Assembly (NCBI GenBank): GCA_944332265.1
Contig: CALVJQ010000007.1
Location: forward strand, 1 to 62,255
Direction of reading: 5' to 3'
Length of the DNA stretch: 62,255 bases
Source of the DNA: an uncultured Bacilli bacterium
Lineage (GTDB): Bacteria > Bacillota_I > Bacilli_A > RF39 > UBA660
Part shown: positions 2,487-59,040 of the stretch, one piece after another
Layout: every line of letters begins with the position of its first letter
How positions within the stretch are numbered: position 1 is the stretch's first letter
Position numbers and translations under genes: made by a program
The notes under the pieces: generated by a model
The model's input: the letters and a program-made list of their open reading frames with translations, nothing else
Told to the model about the DNA's origin: nothing
Databases searched by the model: none

Positions 2487-3308
2487 TTATCTCATTAAGT
2501 TAATTATATTTATGATAATTATATAACCATATATTACAAAGGTCATACTATCAAAACGATCTAGAATACCACCGTGTCCAGGCATAATATTAGAAAAATC
2601 TTTTATATTGTTTTCTCTTTTCATTTTACTAAAGAATAAGTCACCTAATTGACCTAAGATACTTAAGAATAAAGTCATTATGATTAAAGCAATAATGTTA
2701 ATATTACTAGTAATAACATTATAATAATAAATAGATGCTATGGCAGTACCTAGTATGGAACCAGCTATACTACCTTCAACAGACTTCTTAGGAGATACTT
2801 TAGGTATTAGTTTATGTTTACCGATTAAGCATCCTATTAACATTGCAAATGTATCAGTCATAGTAGCAATTAAAATTAAGTATAATAGTAACCATTTATT
2901 ACCAAAGAATAGAAGCATTAATAAATTAAAGAATAAACCAATAAAAATAGTAGTTCCTAATAAATAGAAAGCCTCTTTAGTAGTATATTTATCTTTTGTA
3001 TCAAATATACTAGGAATAAGAATAATTAAAATAGATATTCCAATAGCAGCAAATGATACTCCATTATAAATATATGAAGCATTAATACTATTTAGAGTTA
3101 TAAGTTCCATACAAATAAAGCCTATTATAGTCATTATTTTAGGATATGGTTTATGACTTTCTTTTAATGTTAAAGTTTCTTTATATGATAAAGCGGCTAA
3201 AATACCAGCTGCTACGGCCATTAAGATAGTACTTATTTTAGTAGGTAAAACAAATAAGAGAATAACAGCTAGAACTAAAATTGCTGCAGTTATGATTCTT
3301 TTTTTCAT
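2487..3308 (-). CDS. cdsA: Phosphatidate cytidylyltransferase
   Basis: Makes CDP-diacylglycerol from phosphatidic acid and CTP, the branch point to all membrane phospholipids. The protein has 273 residues with about seven or eight hydrophobic helices. The CdsA signature lies near the C-terminus ([13 protein letters not shown] from about residue 243) with the catalytic aspartates, preceded by a second conserved stretch [13 protein letters not shown]. The start ATG overlaps the TGA stop of uppS (ATGA), so the two are translationally coupled. The overlap also shows that UGA works as a stop codon in this organism. A plus-strand open frame inside it is a shadow. Confidence 0.95.
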
Positions 3309-6420: not shown

Positions 6421-8706
6421 TTAACTTCTTGGAACATATGAGCTATCTAAAAGATTAATATCAAATGTATAATTAACTGAATATGTTATTCTAGCTGATC
6501 TAGCGCAATCATCATGTGGAGAATATGTATAGAAACGAAGTTGACGAATCTTTTCAGTTTGAGCATTGAAGATTGATAAGTTACTAGCATGTAAGGTAGA
6601 TTTCATATTTCCAGTCCAGGTGTAAAGTACTACTTCACGTCCTGATTCAGTCATACCATATACTACCATGGTATCAGTTTTGCTACCATTACTGTGACCA
6701 CTTGCGAATTTAACTTCAAAGGTAAAGTTTGAAATATAACAACCTTCAAGGAATTCAATCCAACCACTATCATAAGTTGTATTAGTATAATTAGCATTAA
6801 CTAAAGTACTTGAATCTTCTGAATAAACATATAAAATGCTACGAGTAGATGAAGTTGCACCAGCTTTATCGGTAGCAATTATCTCAAGAACTCCAGCACC
6901 TATATCTGTGGAAGTTAGACGATATGTTGCTTGGCCAGTTGAGGTACTAACTTGTTTGATAGTTAACGACTTACAAATACGACCAGAGGTACATTTAACA
7001 GTAATTGTTGGTGTTTTATCTTCGGCGTCTGTTGATTTAATAACAAGAGTTGCTGTTTCTGAGCCATTCTTTAAATATCCATTAGATGATTTCCCAGAAT
7101 TAGCGTAGGTTGTTGAAACTGTTGGAGTTGTTGGGGCTGTATTAGACCAATGAGCATAGATAGTTACATTACTATCAGTACGATGGATAGTTGATGAATC
7201 GACTTTTGTTCCACCCGATGGACTTGTGTACCAGCCAGTAAAGCGATATCCTGTACGAGTTGGAGTTGGTAATGAGCCATATGCAGAGTCGAAAGTAATT
7301 GTTTTACTTGTTGGGCTGATTGGATTACCTTGATTAACAGAATAAGTTAAAGTATAGGTTTTAGGTTTCCAATTAGCAGTTAGGGTTGTATTAGCTAAAT
7401 CCATAGTAAAGATAGTATCTTTTAAAGTACTATTATTTGAAGTTTTACTCCATCCAGTGAAGTTATAACCAGTTTTTTTAGGATTAACAACGTTATAGGT
7501 TTGTTTATATAATAAAGAGATAGTTTGTTTACTAGCATTACCATTCCAAGTTCCGGTATTAGGATCAATTACTAAGTTGAACCTTTGACGATTATAGTTG
7601 TAATTTACTACATTCTTAGTAGGTGGATCGTTATCAACATCAATTGTTAAAGTTTTACTACTTGGTGAAATAAAGCCAGTATAAGTATTGACTTTAGGAG
7701 TTATTTTGGTTCCGTAATTTTCAGAACCTGTTATTGTATCATTAGCAACTTTATTATAGGCGCTACCATCTGGGGACTGTTGATTATGGTATACAATATA
7801 TTTATAGTTATTTACTTGCCAATTAGCTGTAAGAGTTACATCTCCTGTATAGTTCATGGTAAATTTGTTACCATTTAATGAACCATTACTAACTGTCCAA
7901 CCGGTAAAGGTGTAGCCTTTACGAGTAGGATTTTCAATATCTGTTACTGAATCATATTTAATATCAAGAACTGTTGAAGACGTATTTCCTTTATAAGAAC
8001 CACCATTTGGATTAATCGTAAGTTTATAGTTATTGGCATTCCATATAGCTTTAATTGTTGTGTCTTCGGTTCCCATTTTAAAGATTTTTTCATCTATAGT
8101 GCTATCAGCTCCAGTAACCTCCCAGTTACTAAAGGTGTAACCTACTCTAGTTGGATCTTCTATTTCTTTTTCTTCAGCAAAATCCATACTAAATGATTGT
8201 TCTCCTGGACTTTCAAGCCATGTTCCACCATTTGGATTAACAGTTAAATTACTTACAACTATGTTCCAATTAGCATATATAGGATAATCAATTGTAGAAT
8301 CAATAATACTTTTTTCATCTATTACTTCATTATCTTTATTTGTCCACATTTCGAAGATGTAGCCTTTTTTAGTTGGTTCCATTAAGGTACCAACTGGTTT
8401 TTTATAAACAATACTTTTGCTTCCAAGTTCTTCATCTTCGTCCATATAAATTATTCTTGTTACACGGTCAACATTTATTTTACAAGTTAAAGGAGTTGTC
8501 TTAGTATCAGGTAGATGTTCACCTTCAGCTTCTAAAGTAATAGCAAATAGTTTTACTTGTGTAATATCGTAATTGTCTTTAATAGTATTATTTTCTTTGT
8601 ATAATATGTTTTTTATCAATTCGGTTTTAGGATTTAAAAAACAAAGAGCTGTTATTATAAATATAACTAGTAAGATATTTATATATATTAAAGATTTTCT
8701 TTTCAT
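6421..8706 (-). CDS. Exported surface protein with InlB B-type (Listeria-Bacteroides) repeats
   Basis: The protein has about 761 residues and one N-terminal hydrophobic helix acting as signal or anchor. From about residue 75 to 530 it carries InlB B-repeats (Flg_new type), recognisable by N-x-N-G-G (VNPNGGTW, INPNGGSY, IDPNTGTW), a P-T-R-x-G-Y-T-F-x-x-W block and an ending such as TLTANW. A different beta domain (STDAEDKTPTITVKC) and a C-terminal beta-rich domain follow. There is no C-terminal sorting motif or membrane helix, so it is held, if at all, by its N-terminus. Such repeats occur in adhesins. The ATG at 8704-8706 was chosen over an upstream GTG. It begins 10 nt after the neighbouring anchored surface protein and is probably cotranscribed with it. 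Confidence 0.8.
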   Translation of the reverse strand: MKRKSLIYINILLVIFIITALCFLNPKTELIKNILYKENNTIKDNYDITQVKLFAITLEAEGEHLPDTKTTPLTCKINVDRVTRIIYMDEDEELGSKSIVYKKPVGTLMEPTKKGYIFEMWTNKDNEVIDEKSIIDSTIDYPIYANWNIVVSNLTVNPNGGTWLESPGEQSFSMDFAEEKEIEDPTRVGYTFSNWEVTGADSTIDEKIFKMGTEDTTIKAIWNANNYKLTINPNGGSYKGNTSSTVLDIKYDSVTDIENPTRKGYTFTGWTVSNGSLNGNKFTMNYTGDVTLTANWQVNNYKYIVYHNQQSPDGSAYNKVANDTITGSENYGTKITPKVNTYTGFISPSSKTLTIDVDNDPPTKNVVNYNYNRQRFNLVIDPNTGTWNGNASKQTISLLYKQTYNVVNPKKTGYNFTGWSKTSNNSTLKDTIFTMDLANTTLTANWKPKTYTLTYSVNQGNPISPTSKTITFDSAYGSLPTPTRTGYRFTGWYTSPSGGTKVDSSTIHRTDSNVTIYAHWSNTAPTTPTVSTTYANSGKSSNGYLKNGSETATLVIKSTDAEDKTPTITVKCTSGRICKSLTIKQVSTSTGQATYRLTSTDIGAGVLEIIATDKAGATSSTRSILYVYSEDSSTLVNANYTNTTYDSGWIEFLEGCYISNFTFEVKFASGHSNGSKTDTMVVYGMTESGREVVLYTWTGNMKSTLHASNLSIFNAQTEKIRQLRFYTYSPHDDCARSARITYSVNYTFDINLLDSSYVPRS

Positions 8707-37212: not shown

Positions 37213-37244
37213 AAAGATACAAATTATTTTTTGTATCTTTTATA
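37212..37244. terminator. Bidirectional terminator after mgtE
   Basis: AAAAGATACAAA-loop-TTTGTATCTTTT, T-rich tails on both strands. It serves mgtE and the convergent surface-protein gene. Confidence 0.65.
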
Positions 37245-38588
37245 TTGGTATATAATTAGGAATGATAAAGAGATTGCAAATAATGGTATCATATAATAAA
37301 TATTATCTATAGTTTCAGGATTTTTTATTTCAAAGATAGCTGTTATTGTAACATCACTTGAAGGCATTATGAATGTGTTATTATCTATTTTTATCTGATT
37401 ACCAAGTTCATCTGTTATAGTTAGATTTTTTAAAATATAATTTTCATTTGGAGTTGTACTAAATGAGACTGTATCGCCAGCAATAGCTGTATCTTTAACT
37501 GTAATTGTTCCATGACCATCAGTTTTAGTATAGATATCATAGATATTAACTGTAAATTTGTCAATAAAGATAGTATTTTCACTAAAACCAACTATTGATT
37601 CAACTACAGGGGTTACACTACGATATATTGATTTAATAACGATACCTGTATCATCTGGAATAATAGCAATTGGAGCTTCTTCCTCTACTCTAATTGGTAT
37701 TTGTTCTTCAGAAATCAAATTGTTTTTTCGATCATATATTTTTAAATAACGAATCGTATTGTAGTTTTCATCAGGAGCAATATACATAGTAACCAAGTAA
37801 TCTTTATAGAAAGATAAACTAGTAGAGATACTTATTTTACGACTGTTCTCTTCCCAAATTGTATTTAATTCGTTATCAATTATTTTGATAAAAGAACGAG
37901 GATTACTATCAATAACACTATAACCTGTTAAATAGAATAAATTATTTTTTTTAGAGATATCTGTAATTTCGTAATATTCTTCTTCGTCTGCATTTTCATA
38001 TAAATACGTCATATATTTAAAATACATTTGATCTGTTTCACTTATAAAGGGAGCTAATTTAATTAAATCTTGATATGATTCTATTTCAGTTAAATCTATT
38101 TTTTTTATTGTATCTAAATCATAGTTAGTGTAATATAAATAAAAATTACTTTTATCAAGGTAGTATATTTTATTATTGGCAATTTTTAATTCATCCATGG
38201 ATGAACCAATGTAGTAGTCTTCTTTGGTATCGGTTTGGCTTGTTATTTGGAAGTTACTATCTAATTTATAAATTGTTGTATTACGATCGAGAGCAATAAA
38301 TTGATTATCGTAAAAGATTAAATCAATAATAGGAGCTTCTATATCTGGTTCGTATGATTTTATTAAATTACCTGATTCATCGTATTCGTTAATTATATTG
38401 ATATAATCATATTCGTCGATATGCCAGGTATAATATTTATTATTAACATAAATTACACTATTTAAGCCGGCTCCTAAATTATAGTTTGTTTCATCAAATG
38501 ACCAATCATAATCGAATATTTTTTGGGCTTTGATAGTTGATATACTTAACATAAAGAGAATTATGATTGTTATAAATTTCTTTTTCAT
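37224..38588 (-). CDS. Anchored surface protein with divergent InlB B-repeat
   Basis: The protein has 454 residues: signal peptide (1-21), a large beta-rich domain with repeated F-Y-D-N/L-D-x-N patterns (about 30-345) that suggests a beta-propeller-like fold, one divergent InlB B-repeat (about 350-420: GHGTITVKDTAIAGDTVSFS, MPSSDVTITAIFE), and a C-terminal membrane helix with a KRYKK tail. It is an intact paralogue of the frameshifted gene at 49315-50698, which has the same C-terminal repeat and layout. The ATG follows AGAGGTGAAAAC. Likely a surface sensor or adhesin; the ligand is unknown. Confidence 0.78.
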   Translation of the reverse strand: MKKKFITIIILFMLSISTIKAQKIFDYDWSFDETNYNLGAGLNSVIYVNNKYYTWHIDEYDYINIINEYDESGNLIKSYEPDIEAPIIDLIFYDNQFIALDRNTTIYKLDSNFQITSQTDTKEDYYIGSSMDELKIANNKIYYLDKSNFYLYYTNYDLDTIKKIDLTEIESYQDLIKLAPFISETDQMYFKYMTYLYENADEEEYYEITDISKKNNLFYLTGYSVIDSNPRSFIKIIDNELNTIWEENSRKISISTSLSFYKDYLVTMYIAPDENYNTIRYLKIYDRKNNLISEEQIPIRVEEEAPIAIIPDDTGIVIKSIYRSVTPVVESIVGFSENTIFIDKFTVNIYDIYTKTDGHGTITVKDTAIAGDTVSFSTTPNENYILKNLTITDELGNQIKIDNNTFIMPSSDVTITAIFEIKNPETIDNIYYMIPLFAISLSFLIIYQYKRYKK

Positions 38589-49291: not shown

Positions 49292-49328
49292 TAAATTTAA
49301 AAAAGGTATAATATTTATACCTTTTTTA
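49292..49328 (-). terminator. Terminator of the frameshifted surface-protein gene
   Basis: Minus-strand AAAAAAGGTATAA-ATA-TTATACCTTTTTT, overlapping the stop codon. Confidence 0.65.
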
Positions 49329-50698
49329 AATGTTTATTACATATTATAAAAATTACTCCACTAATAATGAAAATACTAAAAATAATAATAGTAATATCTT
49401 TTGTATCTGGATTTTCTGGTAAGAAAATAACTTCAATTGTAACATCACTACTTGGCATTGTAAAAGTATTTGAAGTAAATGTTAAAATATTACCGTTTGC
49501 ATCTGTTACTTTAACAACACCTAATACATAACCTTCTTCAGGGACTATTTCAAAGGTTACTTCTTTACCACCATAAGCTGACTTTTTAACTATTACTTGG
49601 CCTTTACCTGATTGGGTTGTTTTTATTGAATAAGGATAGTCAATTCCCCATATATAGCCATCGCCAGAAGTTTTGTTCTCCCCTATACCTGCTAATAATA
49701 GTAAATCATTACTAGTAAATAATGCTGTAGCTTTAGTAAACGTTGGGTTTGGATCATTATATAGTTCTTCCATATTAGTTGAATTTTTAATATTTAAATT
49801 TTCATCAATATTATAAATATATCCAATGTTTTTATTATTCTTTAAGGAATTACCTGATATATATATTTCATTATTAGATGTAGCTATATCTGTTATTTCA
49901 TAAATATCTTCTAATACTAAATGAGAAATATAATTACCATCTTTATCTACTTTAAGTAGTAGTCCTTGATTATTATAATATGTTGAATCAATATATGGGC
50001 TAGCTGTAATCATATAATAATAATCACCTATTTTAATTCCTTTTTTCCAATAATAATAAGTTGGCCAATTATATTTTTTTATATTTTGTGAGTAATTATT
50101 AAGAGAGAAATTGACTAAATTATAATCATCTTTCATTATTTCTTTAATTGGAATATCTCCTATACTAATAGGATTATAACTATTACCATTAATATCATAT
50201 TCTATTACTTCTGAAGGAATATTTAAATAACTAAGTATTAAATAGATTTTATCTTGATAATAGTATAATTTAATAATTGTTTGATAATTTACCATATATG
50301 ATACTGGTGATATATCACTTATATCAATTACATCACCATTTTCTTCTTTTAAGACTAAAATAGTACTTAATGAATAATTATCTGATAAAGCTAAATATAG
50401 GTAATTATCAAGCATTATTACATCATGAATTGTAATATTCTTTAGTTTATTTTGCCATATATTTTGACCATTATTATCAATTTTAGAGATATAGGCTTCA
50501 TTATTATTAGTTTTTCCGATTCTTATATAACCATTATTAGTTTTAATAATTTTAGTCGTATAGTTTCCATTTTCTTTTTCTTCTATATTATATTTTTCAT
50601 TCCAAGGACTAGTAAAATTAGAAATATCAAGAGCATGGATTTTAGTAATAAAAGCGCCTAATAAAATAAGTAAGTAATTATTCTTATATTTTTTTCAT
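49315..50698 (-). pseudogene. InlB-repeat surface protein, frameshifted at an A7 tract after the start codon
   Basis: The open frame 49315-50415 begins inside the protein. Going upstream, the same frame stays open to 50689 and encodes KYKNNYLLILLGAFITKIHALDI, a signal peptide, and then a domain with SPWNEKYNIEE. An ATG at 50696-50698 with GAGGT in front leads into seven A residues (50689-50695); with six A the reading would be M-K-K-Y-K-N-N-Y. With seven A it stops after M-K-K-I. The C-terminal part has a divergent InlB repeat (GKGQVIVKKSAYGGKEVTFE, MPSSDVTIEVIF) and a membrane helix, as in the intact paralogue at 37224-38588. This could be a broken gene, slippage-controlled expression or an assembly error. 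Confidence 0.8.
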
Positions 50699-50733
50699 AT
50701 GGTACCTCACTATTCTACCTACATTTAAGTACA

Positions 50734-50761
50734 AGAAAAAGATACTAAATAGTAGTATCTT
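50734..50761 (-). terminator. Terminator of the first ABC operon
   Basis: Minus-strand AAGATACTA-CTATT-TAGTATCTT followed by TTTCTTG. Confidence 0.65.
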
Positions 50762-51047
50762 CTTGGATATCTTTATTTAAAAAGTCATAATCGTCATTTA
50801 ATATAGCAGCTAGTTCATCAGCTTCTACTGGAGTATCATTATCAGCACGCCAAATGATAATCTCGCTAATAAGGGATTCTTTAGGTAAATGACGATAATT
50901 ATCAATAGGATAGTTATTTGATTCAACTTCTTTAATAATATCTTTTAAAGACATTGAATTTAAATCGTTTTTTACTTCCATTAAAATATTAGCATTCATG
51001 TGACCAAATTTGTCATCTAAATATGTCATATTTACATTTTTCTTCAT
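50745..51047 (-). CDS. Hypothetical small acidic protein, third gene of an ABC operon
   Basis: The protein of 100 residues is acidic and helical, without signal peptide or membrane helix. I do not recognise it. It lies 15 nt after the permease gene and before the operon terminator. A site-like DNA-binding pattern is not visible. Its ATG follows AGGAGAATATCT. An accessory role for the ABC pair is possible from position only. Confidence 0.6.
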   Translation of the reverse strand: MKKNVNMTYLDDKFGHMNANILMEVKNDLNSMSLKDIIKEVESNNYPIDNYRHLPKESLISEIIIWRADNDTPVEADELAAILNDDYDFLNKDIQEDTTI

Positions 51048-51062
51048 AGATATTCTCCTTTC

Positions 51063-54000
51063 TTATTCAACACTTTTTAAACTTTCTATCATATCTATTT
51101 TCTTTAAAGTAAAATGTGTTACAAAATTAACTACAATAGTAAAGAAAGATGATATTAAAGCAGCATAGACAAAGCTAAGAGGATTTATTCTTCTTAGAAA
51201 ACGATAGTTTTCCATTTCAACAGTTCCAATAGTTAGATTAGTTAAAATAACTCCTAGACCAAGACCAATAGCTATTCCAATAATTGTTAAAATAATAGTT
51301 TCTTTAGTAATATAATGATCTACTTCTTTATCATAAAAACCTAGTACTTTTAAAGTAGCTATTTCACGATTACGTTCAGAAATATTAATATTAGATAAAT
51401 TATATAAAACAACAAATGATAATAGAGCTGATAATAAAACTAAAATAACAATTACTTTATTAAGAGATTCTAACATATCATTTGCACTATCTACTAAGGT
51501 ATTAGTATGAATAACATTTATTACAGAATCATGTTCTAGTAATTCATTACTTAATTCATCTTTTTCTTTTTTATTTAATTCTTGGGTTTTTAAATAAATA
51601 ACATTTGGCTGATATATATAATCAATATTTTCGAATGTTTGCTTATTCATATAAATATAATGACCTAAGTAATTTTTTACTATACCAGATATTTTAAATG
51701 AATATTCTTTCTTATCACTATCTAATATATTAATTTTATCACCTATTTTTAAATCATGATTAGTAGCTAATTTGTCAGTTATAATAACTTCATTATCTTT
51801 TAAAGTTATTTTTTTATTATCTTCATCATTTAAATTTATTATATTAGATAAATCTTTAGCACTATCAGTAATTAACATACTAACATTAGATTCGCCAACG
51901 TTACCTGTTATTATTTCAGCTAAAGTATAAGATTTTATTTTATCATTATTTATAATATCTGATACTTCATATAATTTAAGATTATTAGTATAGATAGTAG
52001 CATCATAGGTAAAGGTTTTACCATATTGCATATTAGTAATATCAACAATGCAATCTTTTATACCAAAACCACATAGCATTAGAGCAGTACAACCACTAAT
52101 ACCAATTATTGTAACTAAAACACGTTTTTTATAACGAAATAAATTACGAATAGTTATCTTATTAGAGAATTTTAAATGACGCCATAATGGTTTTATCTTT
52201 TCAATTAAGATTTTTTGACCATTTTTAGGAGCTTTAGGACGCATTAAAGTTGCTGGTTTATCTTTTAAGATACGATTAGATGTTATTATACTAGAACCAC
52301 AAATACATACTATGGCAATACATATTCCAGCTAAGGTACTTGGTAGATTAAGGGTAAATTGAAAATTTGGTAAGGTAAATAGTAAGCTATAAATACTAAA
52401 AATAATATATGGTATAAAAGTTAAACCAATAGCTATACCAATAAGACCACCTATAATAGTAGCACTTAAAGAAAATAAGATATATTTATTACGAATTTCT
52501 CGATTAGTAAAACCTAATGATTTAAAAGTACCAATTTCACTACGATCGTCTTCAACCATTCGATTCATAGATATTAAACTAACTAAGATAGCTACTGCAT
52601 AGAATACTAAAGGAAATAAGGCGGATAAATTACTAATACTCTTGGTTTGATCAATATATGAAGAATATGTTTGATCATCTTCACGATCATATATATACCA
52701 GGTAGGTTGTTTAATATCTTCTAATTCTAATCTAGCTTTGGCAATTTCTTCTTCGACTTCTTTTTTATTATCTTCATATTCTTCTAAAGAGTCGTTGTAT
52801 TTAGCTAAATTTGAATTATATTCTTTTAAACCACTTTGATAATCTCGATTAGCTTTTTGGTATTTAGAATAATTACTATTATATGTTTTTTCAGCATCGT
52901 TTAATGTTTTTTCGGTTTCTTTAAGTGTCGTAAGCATTGTTTGTTGTTTTTTTAAAGTATCTAAAGTCTTTTTATTAGTTTGATATTCGGTAGATGAAGA
53001 ATCTAAGGAATTTAAAAGTTTTTCTAAGTTATTAATATTAGTATTAAGGGTATTTAAGGAAGTTGTAATATCCTTAATATTGTATTTATCTAAATTATTT
53101 TGTAATTCTTTTTGACCATTTTCTATTTCTTTTTTAGCTTCTCCTAGTTGTTTTTTACTTTTAGATAAAGTTTTTTTGGCATTATCTAATTCTTTTTTAG
53201 CACTATTTAATTTCTTTTTAGCATCATCTAGTTCTTTTTTACCATCAGCTAATTTTTCATTTGCTTCTGCTTCATTTTTATTAATTTCATTTTCAGCTTC
53301 ATTATAGATATCTTGATAACGGCGATTTTCTTCAGTATCTTTTATTTTATTGATATTATTAGTTGCTTCTTCAATTAAAGAAAGATAATCATTTTGAGAG
53401 GTAATTTTTTCTTTAGCATCTTTAATAGTTAAATAAATATTAGTATAGTAATCAAGATTAAAATTAGAAGGTAGTACGTATGAATAGTAATTAACTGTTC
53501 CTGTACCTATAGTAGTTGAACCACGACTTTGACTGATTGATACATTATTAAAATATAAAGAACTTTCTATTGTTCCAACAATAGTTAATTCTTGGTTATT
53601 AAAGTTTTCATTTGAAATAGTTATTTTATCATTTAGTTTATAATTTAAATTAGTTAAGAAGTTTTCTTCAACGACTATTTCGTTTTCTTTTTTAGGCAAG
53701 TGACCACTTGTTAATTCTAAGGTGTTAATCTTTTTAGGAAGAGATGATATTTTTAAAACATATTCTGTATCATCTTTTTTTATTAAAACATCTTCAGAAT
53801 AAACTCCTTCTATTTCATTGATATTTTTTATTTCTTGTAATGAAATAATATCTTTATCAGTTAAACCCATAGATGAGATGACATTAATATCATAAGTATT
53901 ATATTTATCATAATGCTTATCTATAGTAGCAATCATATCTGGTGAAGTAGCAGTTAAACCAACAAAAACTAAGACACCTAAAAGACTCATTATAACTAAA

Positions 54001-54071
54001 GAAAGGAAACGGGGAAAGTTTTTTTTGATAGTACGTAAGCTATTAGTTAGAAGTCGATTTTTCTTTTTCAT
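51063..54071 (-). CDS. FtsX-type ABC permease with extracytoplasmic coiled coil (system 1)
   Basis: The protein of 1002 residues has a first membrane helix (about 20-40), an extracellular MacB-like region (to about 240), a long coiled coil (about 240-450, rich in Lys, Glu and Asn with heptads), FtsX domain 1 with three membrane helices (about 485-600), a second extracellular domain, and FtsX domain 2 (about 865-1000). Both FtsX domains have the conserved short coupling text (IGTFKSLGFTNREI, IATLKVLGFYDKEV). It pairs with the ATPase gene just upstream (1 nt gap). Such proteins usually work mechanically (lipoprotein release, hydrolase activation) rather than by pumping. The ATG at 54069-54071 has only a weak site (GTGGTAAT). 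Confidence 0.88.
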   Translation of the reverse strand: MKKKNRLLTNSLRTIKKNFPRFLSLVIMSLLGVLVFVGLTATSPDMIATIDKHYDKYNTYDINVISSMGLTDKDIISLQEIKNINEIEGVYSEDVLIKKDDTEYVLKISSLPKKINTLELTSGHLPKKENEIVVEENFLTNLNYKLNDKITISNENFNNQELTIVGTIESSLYFNNVSISQSRGSTTIGTGTVNYYSYVLPSNFNLDYYTNIYLTIKDAKEKITSQNDYLSLIEEATNNINKIKDTEENRRYQDIYNEAENEINKNEAEANEKLADGKKELDDAKKKLNSAKKELDNAKKTLSKSKKQLGEAKKEIENGQKELQNNLDKYNIKDITTSLNTLNTNINNLEKLLNSLDSSSTEYQTNKKTLDTLKKQQTMLTTLKETEKTLNDAEKTYNSNYSKYQKANRDYQSGLKEYNSNLAKYNDSLEEYEDNKKEVEEEIAKARLELEDIKQPTWYIYDREDDQTYSSYIDQTKSISNLSALFPLVFYAVAILVSLISMNRMVEDDRSEIGTFKSLGFTNREIRNKYILFSLSATIIGGLIGIAIGLTFIPYIIFSIYSLLFTLPNFQFTLNLPSTLAGICIAIVCICGSSIITSNRILKDKPATLMRPKAPKNGQKILIEKIKPLWRHLKFSNKITIRNLFRYKKRVLVTIIGISGCTALMLCGFGIKDCIVDITNMQYGKTFTYDATIYTNNLKLYEVSDIINNDKIKSYTLAEIITGNVGESNVSMLITDSAKDLSNIINLNDEDNKKITLKDNEVIITDKLATNHDLKIGDKINILDSDKKEYSFKISGIVKNYLGHYIYMNKQTFENIDYIYQPNVIYLKTQELNKKEKDELSNELLEHDSVINVIHTNTLVDSANDMLESLNKVIVILVLLSALLSFVVLYNLSNINISERNREIATLKVLGFYDKEVDHYITKETIILTIIGIAIGLGLGVILTNLTIGTVEMENYRFLRRINPLSFVYAALISSFFTIVVNFVTHFTLKKIDMIESLKSVE

Positions 54072-54072
54072 A

Positions 54073-54774
54073 TTACCACTCAATACTTTCTATTGGACGA
54101 GGATTATGATTAATATATATTTCTTCTACTTGACCGTTTTTAAATTTTATAACTTTATCTGCCATATCAGCAATAGCACTATTATGAGTTACAATAATAA
54201 TGGTCATTCCTTCTTTATGACAAGTGTCTTCAAGTAATTTTAAGATTTGTTTTCCTGTTTTATAATCTAGAGCTCCTGTTGGTTCATCACAAAGTAATAG
54301 TTTAGGATTTTTAGCAATGGCACGAGCAATAGATACTCTTTGTTGTTCACCACCAGATAGTTGAGATGGAAAATTATCAAGACGATCTTTTAAACCAACT
54401 TTTTTTAAGACTTTTTCAGGATTTAAATGATCTTTACATAATTGAACTGCTAGTTCAACATTTTCTAATGCTGTTAAGTTTTGAATTAGATTATAAAATT
54501 GGAAAACAAAACCAATATCATGGCGACGATATTTTATTAAATCTTTTCCTTTTAACTTAGTTATTTCAACGCCATCGATTATTAAAGTTCCACTAGTAGC
54601 TTCATCCATTCCACCTAGAATATTTAAACAAGTTGTTTTTCCAGCTCCAGAGGGACCTAAAATAACGACTAATTCACCTTTTTCAATAGAAAATGAAGCT
54701 TTATTAAGAGCTTTTATAGATATTTCACCCATTTGATAAACTTTACTAATATTTTTAAATTCAATATATGCCAT
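54073..54774 (-). CDS. ABC ATPase of system 1 (MacB/LolD-type)
   Basis: The protein of 233 residues has Walker [13 protein letters not shown] (about 40-51), Q-loop VFQFYNLI, signature [14 protein letters not shown], Walker [13 protein letters not shown] and the switch His in IIVTHNS. It belongs to the group that powers MacB/FtsX-type permeases. The ATG follows AAAAGGTGATATA. It is the first gene of the operon ATPase - permease - 100-residue protein. Confidence 0.95.
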
Positions 54775-54834: not shown

Positions 54835-54881
54835 CTTTAAAAATTATGAAAATAGACGAAGAATTATTTCTTCGTCTATTC
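54835..54881 (-). terminator. Terminator of the second ABC operon
   Basis: Minus-strand AATAGACGAAGAA-ATAA-TTCTTCGTCTATT followed by TTCATAATTTTT. It is the main feature of the 106-nt gap between the two ABC operons; the gap also holds the start region of system 1. Confidence 0.65.
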
Positions 54882-57800
54882 TATTCATTGCTCTTTAAAG
54901 ATTCTGTTAAATTGATTTTTTTGACATATGAATTTATTAACATACTAAATGCTAAGGTAAAGATAATTGTAGCAATTACAGAGATTATGCAGTTATTAAA
55001 TGTTACTTCTTTAATAAAGTTTAAGTTTTCAACTTCACAAGTTTTTATAACGATAATAGAAAGAATATATCCTGCTATTAAACCAAATATGATACCAAAT
55101 AGCATAAGAATAATATTTTCTCTTTTTATAATACTTATTACTTTACTGTTTTTAAATCCTAGTACTTTGTATGTTGCTATTTCTTTTGAACGTTCACGAA
55201 CATTTATATTAATTAAATTATATAGAACAGCAAAGATAAGTAAGATTGAGAAGACTACAAAGACACCAACTAGTAAAGCTAGATTATTCATAACATCTTC
55301 ATAAGCTTTTTCAGCTATAGAAACATATAATACTTGAGAGACAATATTAGTATCATTTATCTTTTGAGCAAGTTCTAATTCATCGTAATTACCTTTTGTT
55401 TTTAATAAAAGCATGTTATTACGTGGTTCTTGCCCAAAGGCTTTAGTATAATAATTAGAATTCATATAAACATAATGTTCAATGTAATTTTTAGCTATAC
55501 CTTTAACTATTAAACTATATTCTTTTTGTTGTTTATCTTTTAACTTAATAACTCCCCCTACTCTGATATTGTTCATAGTAGCAAGTTTTTCACTAATAAT
55601 AACACCATTATCATCTAATTTTAATTTTTTATTAGTTTTATAATCACGTAAATCGATAAAGTCACTAAAGTTATTATCATAGAATGTTACTGAGTTAATA
55701 TTAATAGTTTTTCCGTTGTAATCGGAAGTATAAGTTTCGTAATTACTTATTAAGCCTTTATTAACGTTATCTAAAGCTAAAATTTTTTCAGTTCCTTCAT
55801 TTAATGATTCACGAGAACTTAAATCTTTATAAAATATTTGAGCATCTACTTTAAATATTTTACCATATTGAGTTGGAATCATTTCAGTTATTGAAGTACG
55901 TAATGATAAACCGGTTAACATTAAAGCTAAACAACCACCTATACCTATTATAGTCATTAACATACGAGCTTTGTAACGAAAGATATTCTTTAATGATATC
56001 TTAGTTGTAAGTGATAAATGATTCCAAAATTTAGGAATTTTTTCAAAAATAGAAGAAACAGTTTCTTTTTCTTGCTTAGCTTTTAATAAAGATACAGGTT
56101 TTTCTTTGAATGTTTCTTTACAACATATTAAAGTTGAAGCTATAGCTACTACTAGAGCTATTCCACTAGCTATTAAGAAATAACGAAAGTTAAAGTTTAA
56201 ATTATAAAATGGGAATTCATATAGCATTTCATAAATAAAATAAACAAATAATGGAAGAATAACAACACCTACTATAATACCGATAAGTGATCCTATTATA
56301 ACGGACGATATAGAATATATTAGATATTTAATTAATATTTCATTGTCTCTAATACCGATAGCTTTTAAAGTACCTATTTGGTTTCGTTCTTCGTATAACA
56401 TACGATTAATAGAGGCACTTATCATAAAGAAAGTTATGAAATAGAAAACAACTGGTACAACTATAGCTAGATTACTTATTTTTTCAATGTCAGAGATAAA
56501 TTGGCCATAACCAGCATTATCTTTTCGATCGAAGACGTAACTTTTAGGATATGATAATGTTTTTATCATATCTTCACCATTTTGAATTTCTAAACGAGTA
56601 GATTCTAGTTGTTGATAAGCAGTATTTTTTTTATTATTTAAATCTGTTTTAGCTGCTGATATCTCTTGTTCATATTGAGATACTGTTTTACGTAGTTCAT
56701 TGTTTTGTTTTTTATAATAAGATGATAATTTACTGGAGCTACCCATTGAATTATAGATTTCTAATTGTTCTTCGTATTGTTTTTTAGCATTTAGATATTT
56801 ATTTTCATAAGATGATAATTCACTTGAAATAGTTAATTGTTTTCTTAAAGAAATATTTTCAGTTTCTAAGGAAGCTTTTTCAATTTTTTGATTAGATATA
56901 GTATTTTCTAGTTGATCTATTTCAGCTTTTAAAGCTACTTTTTCGGCATTTATAGTCGGTGATGTTCCCCCACCAAAGAAACCATTGTAACCAAATGAAG
57001 CGTTATAGCAATAGAAACCTCCTGGATAACAACATCTTTTACCATCAGAAGATAAACTAAAACCAGGATAACATTTATTAGTACTTCCTTGAGTATAATC
57101 ATTCATGCTATTATATTGAGCTTTCATAGCATTTAATTTAGCTGTATTACTATTAATAGAAGTATTTAATTCTTTAATTCTTTGTTCATTATTATTTATT
57201 CTTTTTTGAGTATTAGATATTTGATTATTATAATTTTTTTTGTAATTATCATAAGCAGTTTTAGCATTATTCATCTGTTTCTTTAAATTATTTAATTTGT
57301 TTTTTTCTTCATTTCTAGTAGAATCGCTTATACTATTAATTTTTTGGTCTATTTGTTTATCTGTTAAGATGTTTTTCTTAGTATCATTTAGTAATTCTTC
57401 TTTGTTTTTTATTTCGTTTTCAGATTCGATAAATTGAGCATCTATTTTAGCTTTTTCAGCTTCATACTCAGCTTTAGCACTAGTTATTTTTATTTGTTGA
57501 TCTGTAATTATTTCGTTATATTTATCTTTGAAATAACCACTTACTGCATATGTAGCTTCTATTTCTTTACGTTCGATATAATCATCGTACATTTCGGTAA
57601 AAGCAACACTATTAGTATCATATTTTATATATAAATCGGAATAGACATCTGAATTAACATTAGCTTCATTAACAAAAACATAATAATTTATTTTACCAGA
57701 TAAAAGAGTTGAATTACCACGGTCGATAGCTAGATACTCTGGTGATTGAATAACACCAACTATTTTAAGCTTTTTTTCTTTTAATAAATCGGATTCAATA

Positions 57801-58255
57801 GTGATTTCATCACCTATTTCATATCCATCGTTATGCATTTTTTTATCAATAACACATTCGTTATTATTTTTAGGATTTTCACCATCTATTAGTTTGGTAG
57901 TATTTATTTTATTTTTACTATTATAAGAGTGAAGTCTTATAACATAATCTTCACCATCTAAGTTATTAACAATATCTTGTGTATATGCACCTTCAATATA
58001 TTTTACTTCTTCAAGCGTCGTTTTTAACTGAGAGATATCATTAGCTTCGATACCATATTCTAAATTTACTTTAACATCGTAAAAGTTATTATTTTCAACA
58101 AATTCAGTCATTGTATCTTGAAGGTCAAGACTAGATATTTTCATTCCAACGAAAAAGCCAACTCCTAAGGTAACAATTATTATTTGAGCTATATAAGTTT
58201 TGATATTCTTACGAATAAAATTTTTAGTTTCTTTGATTAAAACTTTGTTTACCAT
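54881..58255 (-). CDS. FtsX-type ABC permease with coiled coil and Cys-rich insert (system 2)
   Basis: The protein of 1124 residues has the same plan as system 1: N-terminal helix (about 18-35), MacB-like region, a long coiled coil (about 240-600), FtsX domain 1 (about 610-760, GTLKAIGIRDNEIL) and FtsX domain 2 (about 985-1115, IATYKVLGFKNSKV). The coiled coil is interrupted at about 395-425 by a Cys, Tyr and Gly-rich insert (NKCYPGFSLSSDGKRCCYPG, then FYCYNASFGYNG), followed by a second helix, which makes it look like the tip of a hairpin. System 1 lacks this insert. The start overlaps the ATPase gene by 7 nt. Confidence 0.88.
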   Translation of the reverse strand: MVNKVLIKETKNFIRKNIKTYIAQIIIVTLGVGFFVGMKISSLDLQDTMTEFVENNNFYDVKVNLEYGIEANDISQLKTTLEEVKYIEGAYTQDIVNNLDGEDYVIRLHSYNSKNKINTTKLIDGENPKNNNECVIDKKMHNDGYEIGDEITIESDLLKEKKLKIVGVIQSPEYLAIDRGNSTLLSGKINYYVFVNEANVNSDVYSDLYIKYDTNSVAFTEMYDDYIERKEIEATYAVSGYFKDKYNEIITDQQIKITSAKAEYEAEKAKIDAQFIESENEIKNKEELLNDTKKNILTDKQIDQKINSISDSTRNEEKNKLNNLKKQMNNAKTAYDNYKKNYNNQISNTQKRINNNEQRIKELNTSINSNTAKLNAMKAQYNSMNDYTQGSTNKCYPGFSLSSDGKRCCYPGGFYCYNASFGYNGFFGGGTSPTINAEKVALKAEIDQLENTISNQKIEKASLETENISLRKQLTISSELSSYENKYLNAKKQYEEQLEIYNSMGSSSKLSSYYKKQNNELRKTVSQYEQEISAAKTDLNNKKNTAYQQLESTRLEIQNGEDMIKTLSYPKSYVFDRKDNAGYGQFISDIEKISNLAIVVPVVFYFITFFMISASINRMLYEERNQIGTLKAIGIRDNEILIKYLIYSISSVIIGSLIGIIVGVVILPLFVYFIYEMLYEFPFYNLNFNFRYFLIASGIALVVAIASTLICCKETFKEKPVSLLKAKQEKETVSSIFEKIPKFWNHLSLTTKISLKNIFRYKARMLMTIIGIGGCLALMLTGLSLRTSITEMIPTQYGKIFKVDAQIFYKDLSSRESLNEGTEKILALDNVNKGLISNYETYTSDYNGKTININSVTFYDNNFSDFIDLRDYKTNKKLKLDDNGVIISEKLATMNNIRVGGVIKLKDKQQKEYSLIVKGIAKNYIEHYVYMNSNYYTKAFGQEPRNNMLLLKTKGNYDELELAQKINDTNIVSQVLYVSIAEKAYEDVMNNLALLVGVFVVFSILLIFAVLYNLININVRERSKEIATYKVLGFKNSKVISIIKRENIILMLFGIIFGLIAGYILSIIVIKTCEVENLNFIKEVTFNNCIISVIATIIFTLAFSMLINSYVKKINLTESLKSNE

Positions 58256-59040
58256 GGTAATTCTCCTACTGGAGTTGGATTATTGTTTTCAACCTTGCTT
58301 ATTATTTCTCCACTACGGAATGAATAGACAACATCAGCTATTGGAGTAATAAAATTATTATGTGTTACGATAATTAGAGTTATATTTTTTTCTTTACAAG
58401 TTTTAACTAACAATTCTAGAACTTGTCTAGTAGTATTATAGTCAAGTGCTCCAGTTGGTTCATCAGCAAAAAGGATACGCGGTTCTTTAGCTAGAGCACG
58501 GGCGATAGATACTCTTTGTTGTTCACCGCCGGATAATTGACTTGGATAATTATTTATACGATCTTTTAAACCAACTTGTTCTAGAAGATATTCGGCGTTA
58601 CTTTTCTTTTTCTTTTTACATAGTTCTAATACTAATTCCACATTATCTTTAGCAGTTAATGTTTGAATTAAATTATAAAATTGGAATATGTAGCCTACTT
58701 TAGCGCGACGGTATTCTAGCATTTTGTTTTCGTTGTATTTAGTTATATCGTCACCATCAACAAAGATACGACCGGATGTTGCTTGGTCTAGACCACCTAA
58801 TAAATTAAGAGCTGTACTTTTTCCGGCTCCACTTGTACCAAGAAATATAACAATATCTCCTTCATATATAGTAAAATTAATACCATTTAAAGCACGTGTA
58901 TATACTTCACCAGTATGGTATTCTTTAACAACATTTTCAAATTTTATAATAGGTTTTTTCTTCTTTTTAGGAGTAGAAGGGGTTTCTTCAAGATCTAGAA
59001 CTTCTATTTCAGAATTAGTTAGATTATTATCTTTGTTCAT
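58249..59040 (-). CDS. ABC ATPase of system 2 (MacB/LolD-type)
   Basis: The protein of 263 residues has an N-terminal extension of about 28 residues ([19 protein letters not shown]) and then a standard ATPase: Walker [27 protein letters not shown], Walker [20 protein letters not shown]. It is closely related to the ATPase of system 1, pointing to duplication of the whole pair. The ATG follows GAGGTGATAAT. Confidence 0.95.

Follow-up and report, generated by a model that had tools for sequence, protein, structure and literature searches.

Introduction

Surface-protein genes with short adenine tracts near their starts are known from a few well-described bacterial systems. In Listeria monocytogenes a tract near the start of inlA is found as A6 or A7, a peptide of 8 residues is all that the off form encodes, and the insertion leading from A6 to A7 occurs at a rate of about 1e-7, the reverse change being rarer (PMC2831843). 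In Mycoplasma hominis 8 A keep the vaa gene on, 7 or 9 turn it off, and switching takes place at a rate of 1e-3 to 1e-4 (PMC524362). Here we describe a surface-protein gene with an A tract at its very start in an uncultured gut bacterium of the genus Candidatus Coprovivens (Bacilli). The window referred to below is the whole stretch of DNA analysed, 62,255 nucleotides in length.

Results

It is confirmed that the window contains a surface-protein gene which is out of frame at its start-proximal A tract and otherwise intact (Table 1). The original prediction, an ATG with a ribosome binding site leading into seven A, a frame ending after four codons and a shifted frame open to 49315, was borne out at each of these points. 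The start as assembled reads ATG AAA AAA ATA TAA, the bases following the tract being TATAAG, and the shifted frame is free of stops throughout. Base shuffles of the same 457-codon stretch (n = 2000) average 45 stops, with a minimum of 28, and the remaining five frames hold 35-85 stops each. That no stop is found where about 45 are expected shows that this recently was, or still is, a coding frame. Among the window's open frames of 140 codons or more, this one alone has no early start: no ATG, GTG or TTG occurs within it upstream of 50415. A start codon inside the displaced frame near its 5' end was considered and rejected, as the first candidate lies only at that position and has no clear Shine-Dalgarno sequence. 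The tract itself is neither longer nor rarer than the background, as tracts of at least seven A or T occur 71 times inside the ORFs of the window, and another ORF (2487-3308) also opens with ATG-A7, in frame. Alternatively, the net shift of one base may sit just past the A7 tract and not within it.

Table 1. Coordinates of the out-of-frame gene, its start region and C-terminal elements, and of the intact paralogue.
Feature	Position	Strand	Description	Further detail
Shine-Dalgarno GTGAGG	50705..50710	-	6 nt upstream of ATG	read from the sequence
ATG start codon	50696..50698	-	as assembled opens four-codon frame, MKKI then stop	TAA at 50686-50684
A7 tract	50689..50695	-	adjoins ATG on its 3' side	
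Open frame off register with the ATG	49315..50688	-	457 codons	TAA stop at 49317-49315
InlB-type B-repeat, Pfam PF18998	49420..49632	-	residues 353-423	E = 8e-7, above curated cut-off
NPDT motif, membrane helix and basic tail (sortase-type anchor)	49318..49413	-	residues 426-457	
Intact paralogue with same C-terminal repeat and anchor	37224..38588	-		98% identical in sister species

The protein encoded in the displaced frame consists of a signal peptide (called by eye and from the alignment), a beta-propeller-like domain, a single InlB-type B-repeat of the divergent kind described by PF18998, an NPxT motif, a membrane helix and a basic tail. The same order is found in the 17 family members of the genus that were aligned, all with a signal-peptide-like start with an invariant alanine (A19) and a divergent domain of about 300 residues ahead of the repeat and the anchor; the N, P and T of the NPxT motif are invariant among them. 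In an AlphaFold model (mean pLDDT 74.5) the repeat comes after a beta-rich domain and is itself followed by a long helix at the C terminus (residues 427-456). Beta-propellers, among them BamB and WD40 domains, make up most of the best-matching solved structures, with low TM-scores. The genome contains a single sortase gene, whose active-site motif is TLSTC. As NPxT signals are used by class B sortases of the TLxTC type, anchoring in the wall by this enzyme is plausible, and from these sequence features we infer that the product is probably an exported accessory surface protein, anchored by sortase in the wall.

Two more members of the family are encoded in the genome, both intact, one within the window (Table 1) and one on another contig (C5:4074-5330). 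The former had been put forward in the original prediction as an intact paralogue with the same repeat and anchor, which holds, with the likeness to the out-of-frame gene confined in BLAST comparisons to the C-terminal 126 residues (about 40% identity). Its A8 tracts are located mid-gene and in frame. A second copy of the out-of-frame gene was rejected, since the sole other DNA match in the genome (on C16) is a chance match of 41 bp beside a ksgA-like gene. Searches with peptide patterns in species genomes and in viral contigs found no close relatives, and a DNA search across 98 relatives returned mainly AT-rich chance matches.

Among the family members of the genus, six others start with ATG-A7 and are in frame (L005/L074, L006/L084, L007/L085, L012/L091, L020/L103 and L087), from which it follows that a length of A7 does not in itself mean 'off' and that the tract is an ordinary mutable site. 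The nearest B-repeat relative, L006, begins with MKKIFK, and the alignment to it is equally good if a small indel is placed just 3' of the A7, so that the tract may be innocent. No other full-length member in the genus was found to be out of frame at its start. One member (L009) is truncated by a contig end, and two further open frames with late starts have other causes, the late start of L068 being explained by a TTG start and that of L104 by an internal TGA. In the latter, a more distant B-repeat protein (G006:C12, 3176-3586 region), the coding frame extends upstream of the in-frame TGA, which is either a nonsense mutation or a sense TGA; TGA seldom serves as a stop in the window (2/62 ORFs). 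Tandem arrays of two to five members are common in the family (G010:C68 with L082, L093 and L009; G009:C24; G001:C1 2.5-5.7 kb; G041:C25). The members resemble one another in their C-terminal repeats and anchors and diverge in the N-terminal domains, a pattern that suggests duplication or recombination of modules.

The window was further compared to the sister species, Candidatus Coprovivens excrementavium (genome G001), the contig C7 of which (CALVVU010000007) is colinear with window positions 20957-62187 and about 8-16% apart at the DNA level in aligned blocks. As nucleotide indel counts at low gap costs proved to be alignment noise, the protein comparison was used instead. Nearly all window genes between 22 and 62 kb have full-length colinear counterparts in the sister species, at 60-100% identity, and the unmatched entries are a gene cut at the edge, an antisense frame and the out-of-frame surface-protein gene. 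The latter is missing: galE adjoins the 100-residue gene that is located upstream in the window. The spacer of the sister species nevertheless aligns with the window gene's last codons and terminator at a score of 48, against 39 for the highest of 5000 shuffles. The sister species most likely lost the gene by deletion, judging from this 3' remnant, which also favours loss over the alternative considered, a gain in the window lineage. The probable deletion site (L054, G001:C7, about 8490-8580) corresponds to window positions 49315-50740, with a short matching sequence at the junction. Two further genomes, G014 and G009, likewise lack the gene at the equivalent place. Its absence from the sister species shows that the gene is dispensable and that its loss is tolerated.

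The surroundings of the locus show some additional features. The upstream 100-residue protein (50745-51047) has a weak match (E 1e-3) to the Rho N-terminal domain, the rest of Rho being absent. Beyond it are two adjacent, related FtsX-like permease genes (51063-54083, with a coiled-coil insert, and 54881-58255). A second pair of related, smaller genes (54073-54774 and 58249-59040) accompanies them, one next to each permease gene. Compared with the sister species, the permease copy beside the broken gene shows only 79% identity and the other copy 98%. Between 22331 and 35721 most protein identities to the sister species fall within 60-97%, and between 35872 and 62187 within 79-100%, an unevenness that suggests recombination or uneven divergence.

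Discussion

The data are best explained by a small and recent indel which would have turned the surface-protein gene off in the assembled strain. We infer that the indel is most likely the result of replication slippage inside the start-proximal A tract, after which the ribosome would yield MKKI and then stop; the same kind of slip could revert the allele, at a rate expected to be modest for seven A in the presence of mismatch repair. On this reading, to which we assign a probability of about 0.58, an accessory surface protein would be lost through a reversible null allele, and the locus would not be a dedicated high-frequency switch. That the sister species lacks the gene and retains its 3' end, its loss thus being tolerated, supports a null allele. 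The age of the lesion can be judged from the frame itself. It offers 244 single substitutions that would create a stop, with about 0.8 new stops expected per 1% of neutral divergence, and that none has accrued implies either that the lesion is recent or that the frame is still selected in other cells. Seen against a DNA divergence of 8-16%, the absence of stops also indicates that the lesion arose long after the two species parted. General decay, of which further stops would have been the sign, is thus not apparent within the out-of-frame gene, and the lesion looks recent.

A more specialised origin is that the tract flips often between lengths, giving mixed populations of on and off cells for immune or phage evasion, as in vaa of M. 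hominis. Such programmed phase variation is possible, though on balance unlikely. A surface protein, a poly-A tract near the start and an intact downstream frame are all in its favour, as are the known behaviour of vaa (PMC524362) and the ATG-A7 starts of six other family members, several of which could slip. However, the tract is just seven long in a window with 71 tracts of at least this length in its ORFs, none of the other full-length members was found to be off at its start, and in the intact paralogue the A8 tracts lie in frame in the middle of the gene. The genome also encodes MutS and MutL, both as long open frames, and mismatch repair by MutS/MutL lowers slippage in short tracts. Of the start-proximal homopolymer switching suggested in the original prediction, the layout, which is that of vaa and inlA, was upheld; the switching itself may occur, but the assembly shows a single state and both repair genes are present. 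An extension of this idea, that the A tract found near the start in about one third of the NPxT-anchored propeller family in the genus provides family-wide slow contingency switches with mismatch repair kept, is very unlikely; if true, it would give each cell of these gut Bacilli a different surface set. An error of sequencing or assembly in the homopolymer, or a consensus of mixed strains, is a distinctly unlikely source of the shift. Homopolymers are the usual site of such errors and the window is a whole contig (C7) of a draft assembly in 48 contigs, but comparison with the sister species shows the other genes compared between 22 and 62 kb, with their many tracts of 7-8 A, to be full length and in frame. 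A generally noisy assembly is on these grounds excluded, and a single local error is possible as judged from the same comparison.

It has also to be considered that a full-length protein is made from the out-of-frame DNA, by slippage of the RNA polymerase in the A run or by ribosomal frameshifting. The downstream frame is intact and has no start of its own, and Buchnera, an AT-rich endosymbiont, provides a known case of such rescue (discussed in PMC2831843). The bacterial host RNA polymerase studied in PMC6260861, however, showed no detectable slippage below 8 A, and insertion predominates over deletion in such runs (PMC5574713). Insertion of one A, like the common -1 ribosomal shift on A AAA AAA, would enter the third frame, which closes after about 13 codons, and both insertion slippage and -1 ribosomal frameshifting were consequently rejected as leading to the wrong frame. 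In addition, the RNA structure predicted at the start is not stable (z -0.78). The combination of tract and direction that would restore the frame, as expected of a programmed frameshift, was thus not found at this start, the favoured directions leading to a closed frame and A7 being below the slippage length reported for bacterial RNA polymerase. Transcriptional slippage, named as an option in the original prediction, is disfavoured on the same grounds, and rescue by any of these routes is most improbable.

As it stands, the locus documents a dispensable and variable surface-protein family in Candidatus Coprovivens. Starts with ATG-A7 are normal in this AT-rich genus and are alone no evidence of switching. 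If switching were true, a surface-protein family of uncultured gut Bacilli would join the short list of poly-A contingency genes.

By analogy, inlA of L. monocytogenes is the closest analogue of the putative OFF allele. Both concern a surface protein of the internalin kind in Bacilli, with an A tract near the start, an off peptide of a few residues and a gene that remains intact otherwise. In inlA, on the other hand, A7 is on and A6 off, as demonstrated in many isolates and with a measured rate, whereas here a single assembled state is at hand; InlA also differs in being anchored by LPxTG instead of NPxT, and its domain is not propeller-like plus one B-repeat as in the window protein. The vaa gene resembles the locus in being a surface adhesin gene with a short 5' poly-A tract for which 7 A is an off length, but its switching is demonstrated, while the window genome, with MutS and MutL, is known from one assembled state. 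Ordinary recent frameshift pseudogenes of draft genomes are similar in that one frameshift has hit a dispensable gene, here one that the sister species lacks altogether; the window lesion differs by its place, immediately 3' of the start codon, and by showing no further decay as yet. The locus is most likely an instance of a familiar on/off or loss mutation and not a new system.
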